NCBI GenBank assembly: GCA_002786025.1
Contig: NHNW01000040.1
Coordinates: forward strand, 62,001 to 126,000
From: Zasmidium citrigriseum
Lineage: Eukaryota; Ascomycota; Dothideomycetes; Mycosphaerellales; Mycosphaerellaceae
Reading direction: 5' to 3'
Length of the DNA stretch: 64,000 bases
The position numbers and the translations under genes were made by a program. The number at the start of each line of letters is the position of its first letter. Position 1 is the stretch's first letter. The notes below the pieces were generated by a model. That model saw only the letters and a list, made by a program, of their open reading frames with translations, searched no databases and was not told the origin of the DNA. This document shows positions 9,623 through 17,230 of the stretch, one piece after another.

Positions 9623-12600
9623 ATGGCCTCCACTAATGCGCCGCCCGGACAGGCGCAAGGGGCCACCAATTCGAAACCGCCCGACGGCATCAAACTGGAC
9701 ACCGCCAACTTGAACTACGATGCGCCGAGACACATGTCAGTTGCGACAGCAGCATCTGATACATACAGCCCCATGTCTTCCGCCCCGCCTACTCCTGGTC
9801 TCAAGACCCCCCAGGCCCGCCGTACATCACAACCCGCTACGTCACCCATCGTCAAAGATTCACCACGAACTTCGCATACACCAGCCCTGTCGCGTCGGGC
9901 TTCGAGCTCTGCCAGCGTGAGCAGACCGCCGTCGTCGCCTCGTTTGATGAAGAAAGGCTCTAGGTCGTCGCTGGGCGGACCCGATGATCATGAGAAGAGA
10001 CCGACACCAAAGCGATCCATTTCCAACTTGATCTCGGGCTTGAGGGAAGCGCAAGCAACCATGGAGTCCATCGAAGAGCCGATACCCCTGACAGCACCTC
10101 AGATCGCCGTCGACCACTTCAGCAGAGAACTTCTGGGCCATGAGCGACCAGAGTCAGAGGCAGAGACGATTGTCATACTTCATGATGCCTGCTATGGCCA
10201 CCGATATTCGCGACTCAAGACAACCAAGACTGCGCTGTCCATGATTGTGGAACGCCCAGAACGACTCCATGCTAGCGTACTAGGAGCTTCAAGTGCCTAT
10301 GTGCGGTTGGGTGGACATCATGCTGGAGCTAAGCGCGCACCTCACCCAGACTACCGCGAGCTATCCAAACCCCCTTTCAAGATTCGACGTTCTGGACGAT
10401 CCATGGACATCACCTCATCGTATGTTACCAACGTTCATGGCACGGCCTGGATGTCCGAGTTGCAGGGCCTATGTCACTCTGCAAGCGACAAGCTGGCAGC
10501 TGGTGCAAAGGAGCTCAGCCGAATATCAGGTCCTGGCGAGCCAGAGAAGGAGAAGCTACACGAAGGTGATCTTTACCTTGCTCCAGAATCTTTGAACGCC
10601 TTTCAAGGCGCTCTTGGTGGGACGGCAGATGCCATCGATGCGATCTTCGATCAGGCAACAAGCACGAAGCGCGCATTTGTTGCAGTGCGCCCACCAGGTC
10701 ACCACTGCTCAGCAGATCATCCCAGCGGATTCTGCTGGCTGAACAACGTGCATGTTGGGATTGAATATGCGGCGCAGACGCATGGTCTCACGCATGCTGC
10801 GATTTTGGACTTCGACCTTCATCATGGCGACGGCAGTCAGGCGATCACTTGGGAGCGCAACAGCAAGAACAATGTCAAGCGACTGAGCGCTAAACCCAAC
10901 AGCAAGTTGAAGCTGAGCCCGGACATTGGCTATTACAGCATCCATGATATCAACAGTTATCCATGCGAAATGGGTGACGACGAGAAGGTGCAAGCGGCGA
11001 GTCTTTGCATCGAGAACGCACATGGACAATCGATCTGGAATGTGCACCTTCAACCTTGGAAGACCGAACAGGACTTTTGGAAACTGTACGAAGAGCGCTA
11101 TCGTATCCTCTTGGACAAGGCGAAGATCTTTCTGGAGTACCACGCTAAGCGACTGAAGACTGAAGGCAAGGTGCAGCCCAAGACCGCCATCTTCATCTCT
11201 GCTGGCTTCGACGCCAGCGAATGGGAGGGTTCGGGAATGCAGCGACACAAAGTCAATGTGCCAACGGAGTTCTATGCTCGCATCACACAGGATGTCGTAA
11301 AGCTGGCACAGGAGACTGAGGGATGCGAAGGTCGTGTGATCAGTGTTCTCGAGGGCGGCTACAGCGATCGTGCTCTCTGCAGTGGTGTTCTAAGCCATCT
11401 GTCAGGCCTTTGCGCATCGCCTGTCACACAACAGACGAACGGTGTTGGCGAGCTGATGGACCTCAGTTCCCAAATGAACGGCCTGTCTATCAATGGACTT
11501 GGAATCACAGAGTCGGTCACGTACGACGCGGCATGGTGGTCTGCCGAGAATCTCACTGCACTGGAAAACAAGGTCAATCCGCCACCTCCGTCGCAAGCGA
11601 AGAAGATGAGAGGAGGCCCGCAGCCCACGTATGCCACACCAACAGAGTCATTTGCTTACAAGGTACTCGATCCCCAAAAGTTCGCACGCTCCATTTCAGG
11701 CACCATGCGAGAGGCACCGCTGTCAGCACGTCCACCAACTCCACCCATTCCGGAAGTCGACTGGGTTGTGGCTACTCAAGAATTGTCCAAATTGCTCATC
11801 CCCATTGGTCGCCAGACCAAGAGCTGTACACCTGATGAGCTGGCCGTCCCGCGTGCCAAAAAGGAGCCGAGTGCTGTTCAGCCAGTCTCCAAGGCAGAGG
11901 CCGGGCAGCCACGGCAGCTGCGCGACCGAAGGGCGAAAGGACCAGTGTACGCGGAGAGTGCTCACAGTGACGAGACTGCAAGCGTTCGATCTGTGAGCAG
12001 GTCTGAGTCCAGATCGAGCAGACGCGAGACGATCGATGTGCTGCCGACTCAGGATACCGCGCCTACGCAACAGCGTAGGGCCAGTCGGCGACTGAGCGCA
12101 GGAAGTGCTTTAGGATCGACCAATGCAGCAGTCGCCGTTGACGCGCCGCCTGTACCGGCCTTGCCGTCGAGACCTCCAATGACCAGCCGGACGAGTTCGA
12201 GCACTGGTGGAACTATGAAGCCCCCACCGATTCCTGCTCCGAACCCACAGGCTGTCAACAAGAAGGTGCGAGCACCGTCAGCCACGCGGAAGATCAACTC
12301 TGCGAACAGTGCTCCGGCATCGCCAGGGACCAAAGCAGTATCGAAGGCTGCAACCAAACCCGCAACTGAGGACGCGAAGAACTCTGATGTCGACAAGCTG
12401 GCTTCGGGCATGAAGAAGATCACCCTTAAAGTTAGCAGCACGAAAGAAGAGCATGATCGGAAGCAAAAGGAGAAGCTCGATGCTGAGCGAAGAGCCAGGG
12501 CTCTGAAGGGGGCTGAGACGAGGCGGGTCAATGCCGCGGCGAAGAAGGCTGCCAAGGAGGCAGGTGTGCCACCTAAGCCTACTGCGCCGCCCTCGACCAC

Positions 12601-13381
12601 CGTAACCAAAGCGGAGCCGACAACAGTCAGCGATGTTCCATCGATGGCGACGGCCGAATCCGCCCAAGCAATGGAAGTCGGCCGCTCAGAGAACGTTGCT
12701 GCTGCACCTATTGTAGAGGTTTCTGGCACTGGCACTTCTTGGCCCATTCCCACCGTCACCACCAATGGTTCCATCCCCAACCAGATGGCTACGGGTCCAA
12801 CTGACTACTCCAACGACCCGATGCCCATGCTCGAGCGTAAGCCTACCCCCATCGAAGTGCCGACGTCTTTGGGAACACCTGCTGAAGACTTGGAATTTCC
12901 AGAGTATGCCAACAGTGGAGGCAGCGCAAGTGTCTCGCCAGCTTTGAAGCCGGAGAGCACATTTGAGGCAACTGCGCAGCAGCTTACAGCATCGACTTGC
13001 TTGGCCGAACAAGATCAAAACGTGGTCGCTATCGATTCTCGTCCACAATCTTCGATGACCTCGCAACCCTGGATGAGGCCTGCATCAAGTCACTCATCGA
13101 ACGGCGTCCCACAGAGTCCAAAGCGCGTACCATCTTCGCCTGCGAGACCTGCAAGCAGCAGGCAACAACTACCCACATTCACCGCCACTGGGCACATCCC
13201 ATTTGCCCAACCCCCTGGAAGCCCGGAGCGGAAGACTCCTCGCAGTCCACCAAAGACTCTCTGGAAACACAATCCCATGGATGGCGAAGGAGGCATTGTC
13301 GGCAATGGCGTTGGAAGCTCTATGTTGGAAGGACAGGAAAATATCAGCATCTACGACGTCCCTGAGACGCCGGCGAAGTGA
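9623..13381 (+). CDS. HOS3: HOS3-type class II histone deacetylase
   Basis: A single-exon gene of 1252 residues. The catalytic domain spans about residues 160-615. Visible catalytic motifs: RPPGHHCSADHPSGFCWLNN (the tandem histidines), then AAILDFDLHHGDGSQ (zinc-binding Asp and His), then FISAGFDASEWEGSG and the C-terminal VLEGGYS glycine loop. The block order and the long low-complexity C-terminal extension are typical of the fungal HOS3 group rather than HDA1 (no Arb2 domain is seen). The N-terminal 130 residues and everything after about residue 700 are Ser/Pro/Ala-rich, presumably disordered. A charged helix (KEEHDRKQKEKLDAERRARA, about residue 950) could form a coiled coil. Expected role is removal of acetyl groups from histone lysines; nuclear or bud-neck location is known for yeast Hos3 and is only inferred here. 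Confidence 0.93.
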   Translation: MASTNAPPGQAQGATNSKPPDGIKLDTANLNYDAPRHMSVATAASDTYSPMSSAPPTPGLKTPQARRTSQPATSPIVKDSPRTSHTPALSRRASSSASVSRPPSSPRLMKKGSRSSLGGPDDHEKRPTPKRSISNLISGLREAQATMESIEEPIPLTAPQIAVDHFSRELLGHERPESEAETIVILHDACYGHRYSRLKTTKTALSMIVERPERLHASVLGASSAYVRLGGHHAGAKRAPHPDYRELSKPPFKIRRSGRSMDITSSYVTNVHGTAWMSELQGLCHSASDKLAAGAKELSRISGPGEPEKEKLHEGDLYLAPESLNAFQGALGGTADAIDAIFDQATSTKRAFVAVRPPGHHCSADHPSGFCWLNNVHVGIEYAAQTHGLTHAAILDFDLHHGDGSQAITWERNSKNNVKRLSAKPNSKLKLSPDIGYYSIHDINSYPCEMGDDEKVQAASLCIENAHGQSIWNVHLQPWKTEQDFWKLYEERYRILLDKAKIFLEYHAKRLKTEGKVQPKTAIFISAGFDASEWEGSGMQRHKVNVPTEFYARITQDVVKLAQETEGCEGRVISVLEGGYSDRALCSGVLSHLSGLCASPVTQQTNGVGELMDLSSQMNGLSINGLGITESVTYDAAWWSAENLTALENKVNPPPPSQAKKMRGGPQPTYATPTESFAYKVLDPQKFARSISGTMREAPLSARPPTPPIPEVDWVVATQELSKLLIPIGRQTKSCTPDELAVPRAKKEPSAVQPVSKAEAGQPRQLRDRRAKGPVYAESAHSDETASVRSVSRSESRSSRRETIDVLPTQDTAPTQQRRASRRLSAGSALGSTNAAVAVDAPPVPALPSRPPMTSRTSSSTGGTMKPPPIPAPNPQAVNKKVRAPSATRKINSANSAPASPGTKAVSKAATKPATEDAKNSDVDKLASGMKKITLKVSSTKEEHDRKQKEKLDAERRARALKGAETRRVNAAAKKAAKEAGVPPKPTAPPSTTVTKAEPTTVSDVPSMATAESAQAMEVGRSENVAAAPIVEVSGTGTSWPIPTVTTNGSIPNQMATGPTDYSNDPMPMLERKPTPIEVPTSLGTPAEDLEFPEYANSGGSASVSPALKPESTFEATAQQLTASTCLAEQDQNVVAIDSRPQSSMTSQPWMRPASSHSSNGVPQSPKRVPSSPARPASSRQQLPTFTATGHIPFAQPPGSPERKTPRSPPKTLWKHNPMDGEGGIVGNGVGSSMLEGQENISIYDVPETPAK

Positions 13382-13899: not shown

Positions 13900-15099
13900 A
13901 TGCCGCTGAACACCACACCTCGCAAATACCACAAACTCGGACCCTTTGATCTGGGCAAAATGCACGTCATTTCCATCAACGACTTCGACCGCGCCGCTCA
14001 GGCGCAGTGCGACGGCATCATGGAGAGCGCCATCGATGACCTCGTCGCCCTCTCCGAACCGCCCGGTCACCGGCCGACTGTCGCCGATGTCGTCGTCCAA
14101 TTCGGGCAACTTCGACTTTCTGACGATCTACCACTGCAGTTGCGATTTGATTTTGAGCCGCCGACGACTTGCAAACAGTGGCCTGGACCACGATATGGAT
14201 CTTTCTCCCTTCACAAGCCGCTGCCTTCCGCGAAGAGTAAGACGAAGGCCAAGACCAAGGTCTCGAAGTCTACCAGGAAGCATGGCCAGCCGGAGGATTT
14301 CAAGCAGACCCTCAGACCGCTCAAAGTATCGAAGCCGAAGAAGACCAAGAAAGCAGATGTCGCACCCGTGATGCTGGCGACGAAGACGTCACGAGATCCG
14401 CCGCTCGAACTGCTTGGACTGCCACCTGAGTTACGCAACGCCATATGGACTCTGCTGGCAGTCCGTGATGAACCTGTCGAAGCGCAGCTCAGACCTATTC
14501 GACCTTGCAAGAAACCTACCAAACTTCGCGGAACCATCGTTCGGCGCTTTCCAATCGAGCCCGTCGTGGCCTCTGTCAACAAGCAGGTGCGGAGAGAAGT
14601 ACTGTCGATCTTCTATGGCGACAACCGCTTCGTCTTCCAAAAGAACGGCTTCAGCACCAATGAAGGTCACCGCATGACTTATCCCGCCATCATGTCACAA
14701 TGGCGGTCTCGTGAGGTTGCCAACTTCCTTACGCAGCTCGACCTCCGCTTCACCACGAACACGCGCACTTTCAGATCATTGCACGTAGTGTACACCTTCC
14801 GCCGTCTGCCACACAACAAAATTACAATCAACGCGCACGCCGAGAGATTTCCCAGCAAGGCCGTTGCGGATCTTTTGAAGCCCTGCCTCTGCATCGAAAA
14901 GGACGTCATAGCAGCGGTCAAAGACCTCGATTGCGGCGGCGATGTTACGGAGATGGCGATGCAGTTGACGAGAAAGCGTAATCAAATGCTCTTCGGCGAG
15001 GCGTGCTTGGAGAGGGGAACGAACAAGACGGCCCACCCACAGCACCGGTTTTGCGAGAAGTGTGAGAGGGACACCTTTGAGGCGCTTTATAGTAGCTGA
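13900..15099 (+). CDS. 2EXR/F-box-like domain protein
   Basis: A protein of about 399 residues, single exon. I chose the ATG at 13900 (MPLNTTPRKYHKLG) over the in-frame ATG at 13816. The N-terminal half carries a lysine-rich stretch (KSKTKAKTKVSKSTRKHGQP). At about residue 200 comes LLGLPPELRNAIWTLLAV, the start motif of the fungal 2EXR/F-box-like module, followed by VNKQVRREVLSIFYGDNRF, which is the usual second block (former residents, then 'IFYG.N.F'). Such proteins are numerous in Pezizomycotina. Some may act as substrate adaptors of SCF ubiquitin ligases, but this is not shown for most. A cysteine pair near the C-terminus (FCEKCERD) could bind metal. Confidence 0.75.
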   Translation: MPLNTTPRKYHKLGPFDLGKMHVISINDFDRAAQAQCDGIMESAIDDLVALSEPPGHRPTVADVVVQFGQLRLSDDLPLQLRFDFEPPTTCKQWPGPRYGSFSLHKPLPSAKSKTKAKTKVSKSTRKHGQPEDFKQTLRPLKVSKPKKTKKADVAPVMLATKTSRDPPLELLGLPPELRNAIWTLLAVRDEPVEAQLRPIRPCKKPTKLRGTIVRRFPIEPVVASVNKQVRREVLSIFYGDNRFVFQKNGFSTNEGHRMTYPAIMSQWRSREVANFLTQLDLRFTTNTRTFRSLHVVYTFRRLPHNKITINAHAERFPSKAVADLLKPCLCIEKDVIAAVKDLDCGGDVTEMAMQLTRKRNQMLFGEACLERGTNKTAHPQHRFCEKCERDTFEALYSS

Positions 15100-15773
15100 G
15101 CAACGATTGCACGTTGGCGATGTTTATGGTCTTATGAAGTTTTGATATGAGCGTGCATGATGGAAGGTAGCAGGTCTAGGAATGCATTGCAATGACCTTG
15201 GAATGAGATATGGCTTTACGCTTTCATGTCTTTGGAACGATCCGGTGGACTAGTGTGTTTCCTGCGTTACTTTGAGGAGCACATCCATGGCGAAAGGACT
15301 GCTCCTGACCGCTGTTCGGCTAGAGATGGGCCTAAATGCGGCCGACTTTGGTATGCCAGTGTCCAACAAAGAAAGAGTCTATTGAATATGCTCTCAGCTT
15401 ACGAAGTCGATGCCCTAATCCCTTATACAATACGAAGGGCTCTGTTCCTCGATGACAGACCATGCGGTGAGCATTGATGCTATCTCTATGTTCGATCTCC
15501 AGATCTGTGACGCCGTTGCTTACAGTTCAGGACGGCCGTTAACGGGTTCTTTAGCATAGCCTCGCCGAGTTGAATTAACGGTCCCCTCTGACGATATTGC
15601 AAGACGACGAGAATACTTATAGACAAGAAGGAAAACATGGAAGCTAGGGAAAGGCATGGAGAAGAGGCGCAAAAAGAAACGGCATCGATCGGACACATTT
15701 CACACAGCCAACCCAACTTGATATTCATCATATCACATCACGCCCAAAAAGACTCGAGTCCATCCAAAACACC
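15100..15773. other. intergenic, no gene seen
   Basis: The interval between the 2EXR-like gene and the tRNA terminator. Open frames at 15226-15477 (plus) and 15486-15731 (minus) are short and unconvincing. No repeat is seen. Confidence 0.5.
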
Positions 15774-15780
15774 AAAAAAA
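15774..15780 (-). terminator. Pol III terminator of the tRNA gene
   Basis: A run of seven T on the minus strand, 13 nt after the 3' end of the tRNA-Pro gene. This is the expected RNA polymerase III stop and argues that the interrupted tRNA locus is still a Pol III unit. Confidence 0.75.
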
Positions 15781-15819
15781 TTCAACATTCGTTGGGCCTG
15801 ACCGGGATTCGAACCCGGG

Positions 15820-15877
15820 CTGCAAGCATGTTAGTTTATTTGTGTGGAAAACCGTATGTGGACGGCTAGGCACTTAC
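15820..15877 (-). other. GT-AG intron-like insertion in tRNA variable loop (58 nt)
   Basis: It begins GTAAGT, contains a perfect ACTAAC branch sequence 16 nt before the 3' end and ends TTGCAG. It lies between positions 47 and 48, just before the T stem and B box. Removal gives variable loop AGGCC. A one-base shift would give an equally good fold, so here the boundary rests on the GT-AG rule. Confidence 0.8.
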
Positions 15878-15887
15878 GCCTGTCACA

Positions 15888-15915
15888 AATCGAGCAGTTC
15901 AACTGCTGGGCAGAA
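15888..15915 (-). other. canonical tRNA intron after position 37 (28 nt)
   Basis: This segment sits one base 3' of the CGG anticodon, the universal site of eukaryotic nuclear tRNA introns removed by the tRNA splicing endonuclease. It contains a short inverted repeat, GCAGT/ACTGC, able to form a hairpin. Confidence 0.8.
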
Positions 15916-15931
15916 CCCGAAGCGACAATCA

Positions 15932-15984
15932 CTGCAGAATGTCAGAACAAGGTCGAGGCTTGGACTCGAGCGGGAATAACGTAC
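15932..15984 (-). other. GT-AG intron-like insertion in tRNA D arm (53 nt)
   Basis: It starts GTACGT, ends TGCAG, and has a CTGAC branch-like site 13 nt before its end; the length is typical for a fungal mRNA intron. It lies between tRNA positions 21 and 22. The boundary is fixed by the tRNA: shifting it by one base would replace the conserved A21, so GT and AG coincide with what the fold needs. Confidence 0.8.
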
Positions 15985-16004
15985 TACCACTAGACCATCA
16001 GGCC

Positions 16005-16702
16005 GACATTGTCCGATGTGGAGCCGAGAAGCTCATTTGCAATATGTAACGTTAAACGGAGGGGAAGAACTATTGTCCGGCTGACTTCGATATGAATGAG
16101 ATTTTGAGGGTTTTGGGAGGTGTTCGCTAGTTTAAACGTGCCGCCAGCAATCAGGTACGGTACTTACAACGCCGTTCAAACGATCGGATTATTTGTGTGG
16201 TGGTGAAGTCGAGAGATATAGTCAAAAGATGTCCTATCGTGACCGCTTCTTTTCAACGTTCCGAATCGATATCAAACACTGAAACCGACACTGCTTCTAC
16301 AATATCGATTGCTTTGGCGCTGGACTGCAAGAACAGAGTAGCATGGAACGATTCCGGAAGCGTCATTCAAACGAAAAGTCTCATTTGGTTAAGGAGTGAT
16401 ACGATGTAAATTCTTGAACGATGGATCCACTTGAACATTCCACTATGGTCAACATATCGAGACTCAACGAGCGCATGACAGAGCGATCAATCAGCGATAT
16501 GATACAGCCATCTAACTTTGCTCTTGGCTATCGGATCGTAGATTAAAGAAAGAAGAGACCTCGTCGACCAAAAGAACTCCCAGCCCAGTCCACAACCGAC
16601 AAGCTCAAGCTTTCGGCAAATCCATACTCCGAAACTCAACGACATCAACGTTCGGACTCCGTGCAACCTCACCTCTTTCCTCATCTAACACCAAATCCAA
16701 CA
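16005..16702. other. intergenic, tRNA upstream and SnoaL-like promoter
   Basis: About 700 nt without a convincing gene. Small frames at 16197-16409 (plus) and 16487-16684 (minus) lack protein character. The segment must contain the promoter of the SnoaL-like gene. Confidence 0.5.
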
Positions 16703-17230
16703 ATGGCTCAGCCGAATCCAATCGACTACTTCGCCATCCGGAACACAATCGCAACATATTGCGTTGCTCTCGACACTCAAGACTGGCAACTCCTCCGCCA
16801 AGTCTTCACCGAAGATGTCGATGCTACATATCCGTTTGGCGGTCAGATAAAGGGCGTGGAGAAAGTTGCTGCGGCGATTAAGGGCAGGTCAGCATTTCGC
16901 ATCATACAACCACGACAGATTGGACGTTGATGGGCCTTAAACAGATTGACGCCAATCACATCCCAACACGCCCTGACAACCCAAACCATTGAGATCGCCG
17001 AAGACGGCAAGACGGCCACTGCAACAACCTACTTCACCGGTATTCATTTTGGCAAGGGCAAGTGGAAAGGTCAGCAAGTGACGGCTTGGGGGAAGTATGA
17101 AGATACTTTGATCTTGACCGATAAGAAGGACATTCCGGGTTCTTCGGGGCATTGGTTGATTAGCAAGCGCCATGTGGGATTCTTTGGAAGGTTGGGAGAG
17201 GAGGGTGTTATGACCGGTGAGGATGGTTGA
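16703..17230 (+). CDS. SnoaL-like (NTF2-fold) protein
   Basis: Two exons, 16703-16887 and 16945-17230, with a 57-nt GT-AG intron whose removal gives IKGRLTPITSQHALTTQTIEI. The 156-residue product begins MAQPNPIDYFAIRNTIATYC and has the SnoaL-like pattern: helix, 'ALDTQDWQLLRQVFTEDVDA', then strands ending in a WGKYEDTL segment. This cone-shaped fold occurs in polyketide cyclases, dehydratases and isomerases, so the reaction cannot be read from the fold. An in-frame ATG at 16661 would add 14 residues; I prefer 16703 because it gives the usual family start. It converges with the DUF1479 gene, 34 nt apart, and may belong to the same pathway. Confidence 0.8.

Follow-up and report, generated by a model that had tools for sequence, protein, structure and literature searches.

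A tRNA-Pro(CGG) gene of Zasmidium citrigriseum that probably carries two spliceosomal introns beside an ordinary tRNA intron

By the textbook separation, introns of messenger RNA (mRNA) are removed by the spliceosome and introns of transfer RNA (tRNA) by an endonuclease and ligase pair. The U6 small nuclear RNA (snRNA) of fission yeast, a transcript of RNA polymerase III (Pol III), contains an mRNA-type intron that is removed by the spliceosome (PMC8917221, citing Tani and Ohshima 1989, 1991), and the ribosomal RNA (rRNA) of lichen fungi contains spliceosomal introns, which are spliced also when put into yeast (PMC8527467, citing Bhattacharya 2000). For tRNA genes, a 2014 review gives the intron position 37/38 as the eukaryotic rule, with nucleomorphs and Cyanidioschyzon merolae as exceptions, and the term spliceosom- is absent from that review (PMC4090602). 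In Dothideomycetes, introner-like elements spread as introns into new genes, and before long they can no longer be told from ordinary ones (PMC4457414). Among the matches listed in the open-licence literature of PubMed Central, none deals with spliceosomal introns inside tRNA genes of the nucleus. Here we describe a candidate for such a case in a 64,000-nucleotide (nt) stretch of Z. citrigriseum DNA (contig NHNW01000040.1, positions 62,001 to 126,000), called the window below. It is a tRNA-Pro(CGG) gene at 16004-15794 on the minus strand, with two GT-AG introns and one anticodon-loop intron.

We consider it very probable that this is a working gene, one of many in this genome that have gained U2-type GT-AG introns outside position 37/38, and that the spliceosome and the tRNA endonuclease both take part in processing its precursor. 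A sequence-only reading of the window had proposed a tRNA-Pro(CGG) interrupted by pieces of 53, 28 and 58 nt and had left the strand unstated. The gene was found at that place, with the following parts:

15985 to 16004, minus strand: exon 1, 20 nt, with the acceptor 5′ strand, positions 8-9 and the D arm to A21
about 15997-15987, minus strand: A box, lying entirely within exon 1
15932 to 15984, minus strand: first GT-AG intron, 53 nt, at site 21/22, donor GTACGT, acceptor GCAG, 0 slides
15941 to 15945, minus strand: branch site CTGAC of the first GT-AG intron
15916 to 15931, minus strand: exon 2, 16 nt, with the D stem 3′ strand, the anticodon stem 5′ strand and the loop with the anticodon CGG
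15888 to 15915, minus strand: ordinary tRNA intron after position 37, 28 nt, without GT-AG signals, ARAGORN i(37,28)
15878 to 15887, minus strand: exon 3, 10 nt, with position 38, the anticodon stem 3′ strand and the variable loop to position 47
15820 to 15877, minus strand: second GT-AG intron, 58 nt, at site 47/48, donor GTAAGT, acceptor GCAG, 0 slides
15830 to 15834, minus strand: branch site CTAAC (within ACTAAC) of the second GT-AG intron
15795 to 15819, minus strand: exon 4, 25 nt, with position 48, the T arm and the acceptor 3′ strand
15815-15805, minus strand: B box GGTTCGAATCC in exon 4
15794, minus strand: discriminator base
15774 to 15780, minus strand: T7 run, candidate Pol III terminator

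The mature body has 71 nt with 7/7 acceptor pairs; the product of 72 nt that had been proposed is obtained if the discriminator base is counted, not for the body itself. For both GT-AG pieces no alternative placement yields the same mature tRNA, so that the boundary which the sequence-only reading considered fixed by the tRNA for the first intron is fixed for the second as well. The mRNA-type donors, branch sites and CAG acceptors that it named were recovered as GTACGT..CTGAC..GCAG and GTAAGT..ACTAAC..GCAG, and the A box, B box and T7 terminator are all in place, with both boxes uninterrupted. Only the 28-nt piece is located at 37/38; the GT-AG pieces sit at 21/22 and 47/48. With both GT-AG pieces removed, ARAGORN called tRNA-Pro(cgg) and placed the 28-nt intron unaided as i(37,28), while the raw gene was called wrongly as Leu(caa). 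In the window as it stands no tRNA was found by ARAGORN (bacterial setting) or Rfam (gathering thresholds), and searching the DNA for the 71-nt tRNA with its exons joined gave no match, not even at its own locus, and was therefore uninformative. A group I or group II catalytic core was matched by Rfam neither in the window at gathering thresholds nor weakly at 15000-17000, in a scan that covered the window gene only; introns of these groups were rejected for this gene on that result and on length.

The genome (44.4 megabases (Mb), 148 contigs, with the window in contig 84) was scanned for T arms that have a T run behind them, using five stem variants, and the candidates were solved by a tRNA finder that was allowed to remove GT..AG pieces; the branch site was not a criterion in selecting genes. 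Altogether, 156 T arms were obtained, of which 24 were solved without GT..AG removal (21 kept) and 14 with it (11 kept). Set aside as tRNA-like repeats or chance were a 92-nt solution of L052, L140 and the second solution of L158 among the former, and a 398-nt solution of L052, L133 and the first solution of L158 among the latter. Two of the genes for tRNA-Asp, Asp-2 and Asp-3, were found without this solver, only via an anticodon-arm pattern from the spliced Asp-1. The resulting inventory is partial (Lys, Asn, His, Trp, Ile and Met are among the isotypes outside the resolved set) and comprises 34 nuclear tRNA genes, 13 of which contain GT-AG introns, 18 in total. The hosts are Pro-CGG, Pro-TGG, three genes for Asp-GTC, Ser-GCT, Ser-TGA, Leu-CAG, Gly-CCC, two genes for Gln-CTG, Thr-TGT and Val-CAC, that is ten isoacceptors, with up to three GT-AG introns per gene. 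The locations, numbered by hand, span the D arm, anticodon stem, variable region, T arm and acceptor stem:

Gly-CCC: at 9/10
Asp-1, Asp-2 and Asp-3: at 15/16 in each
Pro-CGG (window): at 21/22 and 47/48
Ser-GCT: at 24/25
Thr-TGT: at 26/27
Gln-CTG, both genes: at 28/29
Pro-TGG, Asp-1, Val-CAC, Ser-TGA and Leu-CAG: in the variable region
Asp-2 (L184, C74): further introns at 51/52 (T stem) and 69/70 (acceptor stem), and an anticodon-loop intron, four introns in all
Asp-3: second intron at 53/54

Two more loci are likely further cases. L101 (C96:77200-78200, minus strand) has an intron GTAAGT..CTAAC..CAG at 9/10, and L134 (C1:969600-970500, plus strand) an intron GTAAGC..CTAAC..TAG; the anticodon arm is not settled in either, and both were left uncounted.

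All 18 introns have GT at the 5′ end and AG at the 3′ end and are 50-78 nt long. A CTRAY branch site is present in 18/18, its A lying at a distance of 10-13 nt from the 3′ end, whereas 2000 shuffles averaged 0.64 and never exceeded 5. Chance was rejected as an explanation by this statistic together with an identical pair of Ser-GCT genes: L161, with its 54-nt insert removed, equals the uninterrupted L008 over 80/80 nt. When GT-AG is not assumed, two placements of that insert are possible, GG..TA and GT..AG. The insert of Pro-TGG (L132) is placed best as GT..AG against its uninterrupted paralogue L147, with 64 matches (63 for the next placement), and for four extra Asp inserts placed against a paralogue, GT..AG was joint best in three and one match below the best in one. 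As a control, all 256 pairs of end dinucleotides were allowed in turn. Of 132 T arms that had stayed unsolved, GT..AG rescued 12, and 11 of these rescues included a branch site. For the remaining 255 pairs the mean was 3.87 and the maximum 13 (CA..CG), with a branch site in at most 6. Thus, it is the count combined with the branch site that sets GT..AG apart, not the count alone.

Removal of the GT-AG pieces led ARAGORN to the right anticodon in 12/13 genes, and in 13/13 when the anticodon intron was taken out too. For the 13 unspliced genes it reported nothing in six cases and a wrong anticodon in five. Anticodon-loop introns of 12-32 nt are present in ten other genes of the set. Predicted mRNA introns of the same genome, in a small hand-read sample, resemble the GT-AG introns of the tRNA genes in length and signals: three from one gene in the window read GTGAGC..CTAAC..TAG (51 nt), GTATAT..CTGAC..CAG (65 nt) and GTGAGT..CTGAT..TAG (57 nt), and an mRNA intron of another gene has 58 nt.

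Introns at unusual tRNA positions could also be cut by the tRNA endonuclease at a bulge-helix-bulge, their GT-AG ends being incidental. Archaea do have introns at similar positions, e.g., 45/46 and 53/54, and multiple ectopic ones occur in C. merolae and nucleomorphs (PMC4090602, PMC3978253). With a central helix of 4 bp and inner pairs required, in any of three registers, the motif was found in 0/17 testable introns (the 69/70 intron is too near the end), although this strict test was also passed by 0/11 anticodon introns. Endonuclease introns were rejected on the missing motif, and they would leave GT, AG and a CTRAY at fixed distance unexplained; we regard this origin of the GT-AG introns as extremely improbable.

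Comparison of the interrupted paralogues showed that the mature tRNAs of the three Asp and two Gln genes share 61-67 of 71 nt, and that none of the introns has lost its donor, branch site or acceptor. The interiors of their introns are no more alike than shuffles (249-268 or 60-74 of 300 were as high); in BLAST, the two Gln introns match over 27 nt at 81% at their 3′ ends, where the branch site lies, and two Asp introns match over 16 nt. The retention of splice signals despite diverged interiors may be read as a sign of selection. Between paralogues the T stem differs on both strands, from CAGGG/CCCTG to CGGGG/CCCCG in Asp and from CGCGG/CCGCG to CCCGG/CCGGG in Gln.

A different explanation would be that the interrupted genes are pseudogenes, dead copies with acquired introns or intron-like sequence, and that uninterrupted copies do the work. 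The genome does contain many odd tRNA-like repeats, and Ser-GCT, Thr-TGT, Pro-TGG and Gly-CCC each have genes without GT-AG introns too. For Pro-CGG, the uninterrupted copy that the sequence-only reading had asked about was searched genome-wide with a pattern from the D arm to the anticodon loop (up to 3 mismatches), which found only two Pro-TGG and one Pro-AGG and no uninterrupted Pro-CGG. The pattern from spliced Asp-1 (up to 3 mismatches) found three full Asp-GTC genes and one truncated duplicate, and all three full genes contain a GT-AG intron at 15/16; a scan of viral contigs for interrupted Asp genes gave 0 matches. A shorter Asp anticodon-arm pattern (up to 2 mismatches) matched the same four places exactly and 108 more at 1-2 mismatches, compared with 80 for the reversed control; none of 20 of these 108 places that were examined has an A box, stem and B box together. 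By wobble rules, CCG codons are perhaps readable by Pro-TGG, and Pro-CGG may therefore be dispensable, which does not apply to Asp. Since none of the three full Asp genes found is free of GT-AG introns, the dead locus that had been offered as one of three options is weakened, and a single dead locus was rejected, with 13 genes interrupted, these Asp genes included. The two other options, a spliceosome acting on a Pol III transcript and intron invasion of non-coding RNA, fit together. All 13 interrupted genes give a full tRNA once spliced, their T-stem pairs change on both strands between paralogues, and their splice signals are retained while the intron interiors diverged. Taken with the Asp and Pro-CGG results, this makes pseudogenes an improbable explanation.

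For the reading as working genes, we infer Pol III transcription, spliceosomal removal and use in translation, each from DNA sequence. Through the A box, B box and T run, Pol III would make one precursor with two mRNA-type introns and one anticodon-loop intron. The spliceosome would take out both GT-AG introns, as it does in the U6 snRNA Pol III transcript of fission yeast, and the tRNA endonuclease and a ligase would take out the 28-nt intron. The spliceosome might instead act on RNA polymerase II (Pol II) transcripts, made from the genes alone or by readthrough from neighbours, or on tRNA-like RNAs with another job, and it is in line with this that introns split promoter boxes, those at 9/10 and 15/16 the A box and the one at 53/54 the B box. 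The window gene, however, has both boxes intact, and elsewhere an intron end partly restores the split box, e.g., CAG directly before TTCGATTCC in Asp-3. A T run of at least 4 follows within 45 nt downstream of each of the 13 genes, although the search pattern demanded it for most of them, the exceptions being Val, Asp-2, Asp-3 and the gene in the window. That the folds are those of full tRNAs and the anticodons are normal also speaks for ordinary tRNAs, and we assign Pol II transcripts or another job only a small probability.

Several points weigh against a set of working, spliceosome-dependent tRNA genes. Eleven of the 13 interrupted genes, the one in the window included, came from a solver that sought GT..AG, and in the dinucleotide control GT..AG is by count alone behind CA..CG (12 vs 13). 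The raw Ser-TGA and Val-CAC genes are read by ARAGORN with the right anticodon and one long anticodon intron each. The uninterrupted genes for four of the isoacceptors, mentioned above, belong here as well. The searches for copies used mismatch-limited patterns (3, 3 and 2), and 12 weak Asp matches with the anticodon intact and 12 of the 112 places lie outside the examination. The variable-loop introns of Pro-CGG and Pro-TGG have interiors slightly more alike than shuffles (14/300 as high). Runs of four or more T occur once in 1028 nt of intron, where shuffles give a mean of 3.14, but 303/2000 are as low and the difference is not significant. Finally, the reading is built on the DNA sequence of one genome.

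One of the introns may point to a source. The intron of Ser-TGA (L059, C94:1008600-1009500) has an inverted copy, identical in 40/42 nt and starting exactly at the GT, about 0.55 kilobases (kb) away (L207, 955..914). Three AGs are available to the copy, and with one of them it can form a 53-nt GT..CTAAC..AG intron whose end lies 52 nt before an ATG. The gene downstream is transporter-like, with NCBIfam transporter matches far below the cut-off, and Pfam gave no match on the start of the protein. A candidate intron in a 5′ untranslated region (5′UTR) thus shares this sequence with the intron of Ser-TGA, which suggests that introns of mRNA may pass into tRNA genes in this genome. The comparison covered 350 kb of the 44.4 Mb, and a copy was found for 1/18 introns. 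We also incline, by a narrow preference, to a wider proposal: the spliceosome would be an obligatory enzyme of tRNA maturation in this lineage, at least one amino acid, Asp, would depend entirely on spliceosome-processed tRNAs for its decoding, and the copying of mRNA introns into tRNA genes would be going on. The last part is suggested by the intron common to Ser-TGA and the transporter 5′UTR.

The search brought up other tRNA-like sequences. A repeat family GCTGAYCTGGTCYAATGGTAAGA... (L052, L044, L045, L057, L058, L089 and L012; contigs C78, C70, C92, C94 and C24) has kept the acceptor, a D-arm-like part, the T arm and the T run and has no recognisable anticodon arm. In a second large family, GGTCTCGTGGTGCAGTGGTTAGCAC... 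(L081, L085, L086, L093, L136-L140, L143, L145, L146, L148-L150 and L158), acceptor pairs differ on both strands between copies, many inserts contain a TTGTATC motif, and no clear anticodon was seen. The paralogous tRNA-like genes L043 (C69:269500-270700) and L062 (C101:211200-212100), GGGGAAGTGGTGTAGCGGTAGCACACGGAG..., share a hairpin-like insert with pairs that change together, again with no clear anticodon. L021 and L042 (C49, C66) are AT-rich and look decayed, with T arms intact; repeat-induced mutation would leave such sequences. A truncated inverted duplicate of Asp-3 (L185/L186, C83:683965 and 684696), its 5′ half gone, lies about 0.7 kb away. In the window, the protein encoded at 9623-13381 has its nearest named relative in Zasmidium cellare, with 80% identity across the whole query.

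One precursor in this fungus thus seems to need both splicing systems. If true, the supply of tRNA depends on the spliceosome, so that translation and mRNA splicing are tied through Pol III transcripts, and Pol III transcripts besides U6 are open to spliceosomal introns. A mature tRNA of 71-80 nt nearly fixes each intron boundary and would therefore allow intron gain to be followed with precision. Genes interrupted in this way can escape tRNA finders or be assigned wrongly; for tRNAscan-SE 2.0, the search for noncanonical introns is described for the archaeal mode (PMC8450103).

Compared with known systems, the GT-AG introns resemble that of U6 in fission yeast in being short, mRNA-type and located in a fungal Pol III transcript, both this polymerase and removal by the spliceosome being known for U6 and inferred here. 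U6 is itself part of the spliceosome, whereas the hosts here are RNAs of translation, with ten isoacceptors, up to three introns and a second splicing system acting on most precursors. As in lichen rRNA, spliceosomal-type introns lie in an ascomycete structural RNA made by another polymerase than that of mRNA; lichen rRNA is made by RNA polymerase I, while here tRNA genes are affected and the introns lie within the helices of an RNA of 71-80 nt. Several introns per tRNA gene, also in the D, T and variable regions, are shared with C. merolae, nucleomorphs and archaea (PMC4090602, PMC3978253). The introns of those systems have a bulge-helix-bulge or are 3-24 nt long (nucleomorph of Guillardia theta), unlike those found here, in which GT, a branch site and AG are combined with a length of 50-78 nt. 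The canonical eukaryotic tRNA intron, at 37/38 and cut by the tRNA endonuclease, is matched by the 28-nt piece and the pieces of 12-32 nt, whereas the 18 GT-AG introns lie elsewhere and have mRNA-type signals. Introner-like elements are spliceosomal introns that multiply into new genes in the same class of fungi, the Dothideomycetes, and one tRNA intron here is repeated almost identically in a gene close by; the targets here, however, are tRNA genes, and the 350 kb compared contained a single duplicate. Altogether, this is a known type of intron in a new class of host gene, and a route of tRNA maturation found nowhere described within the literature covered.
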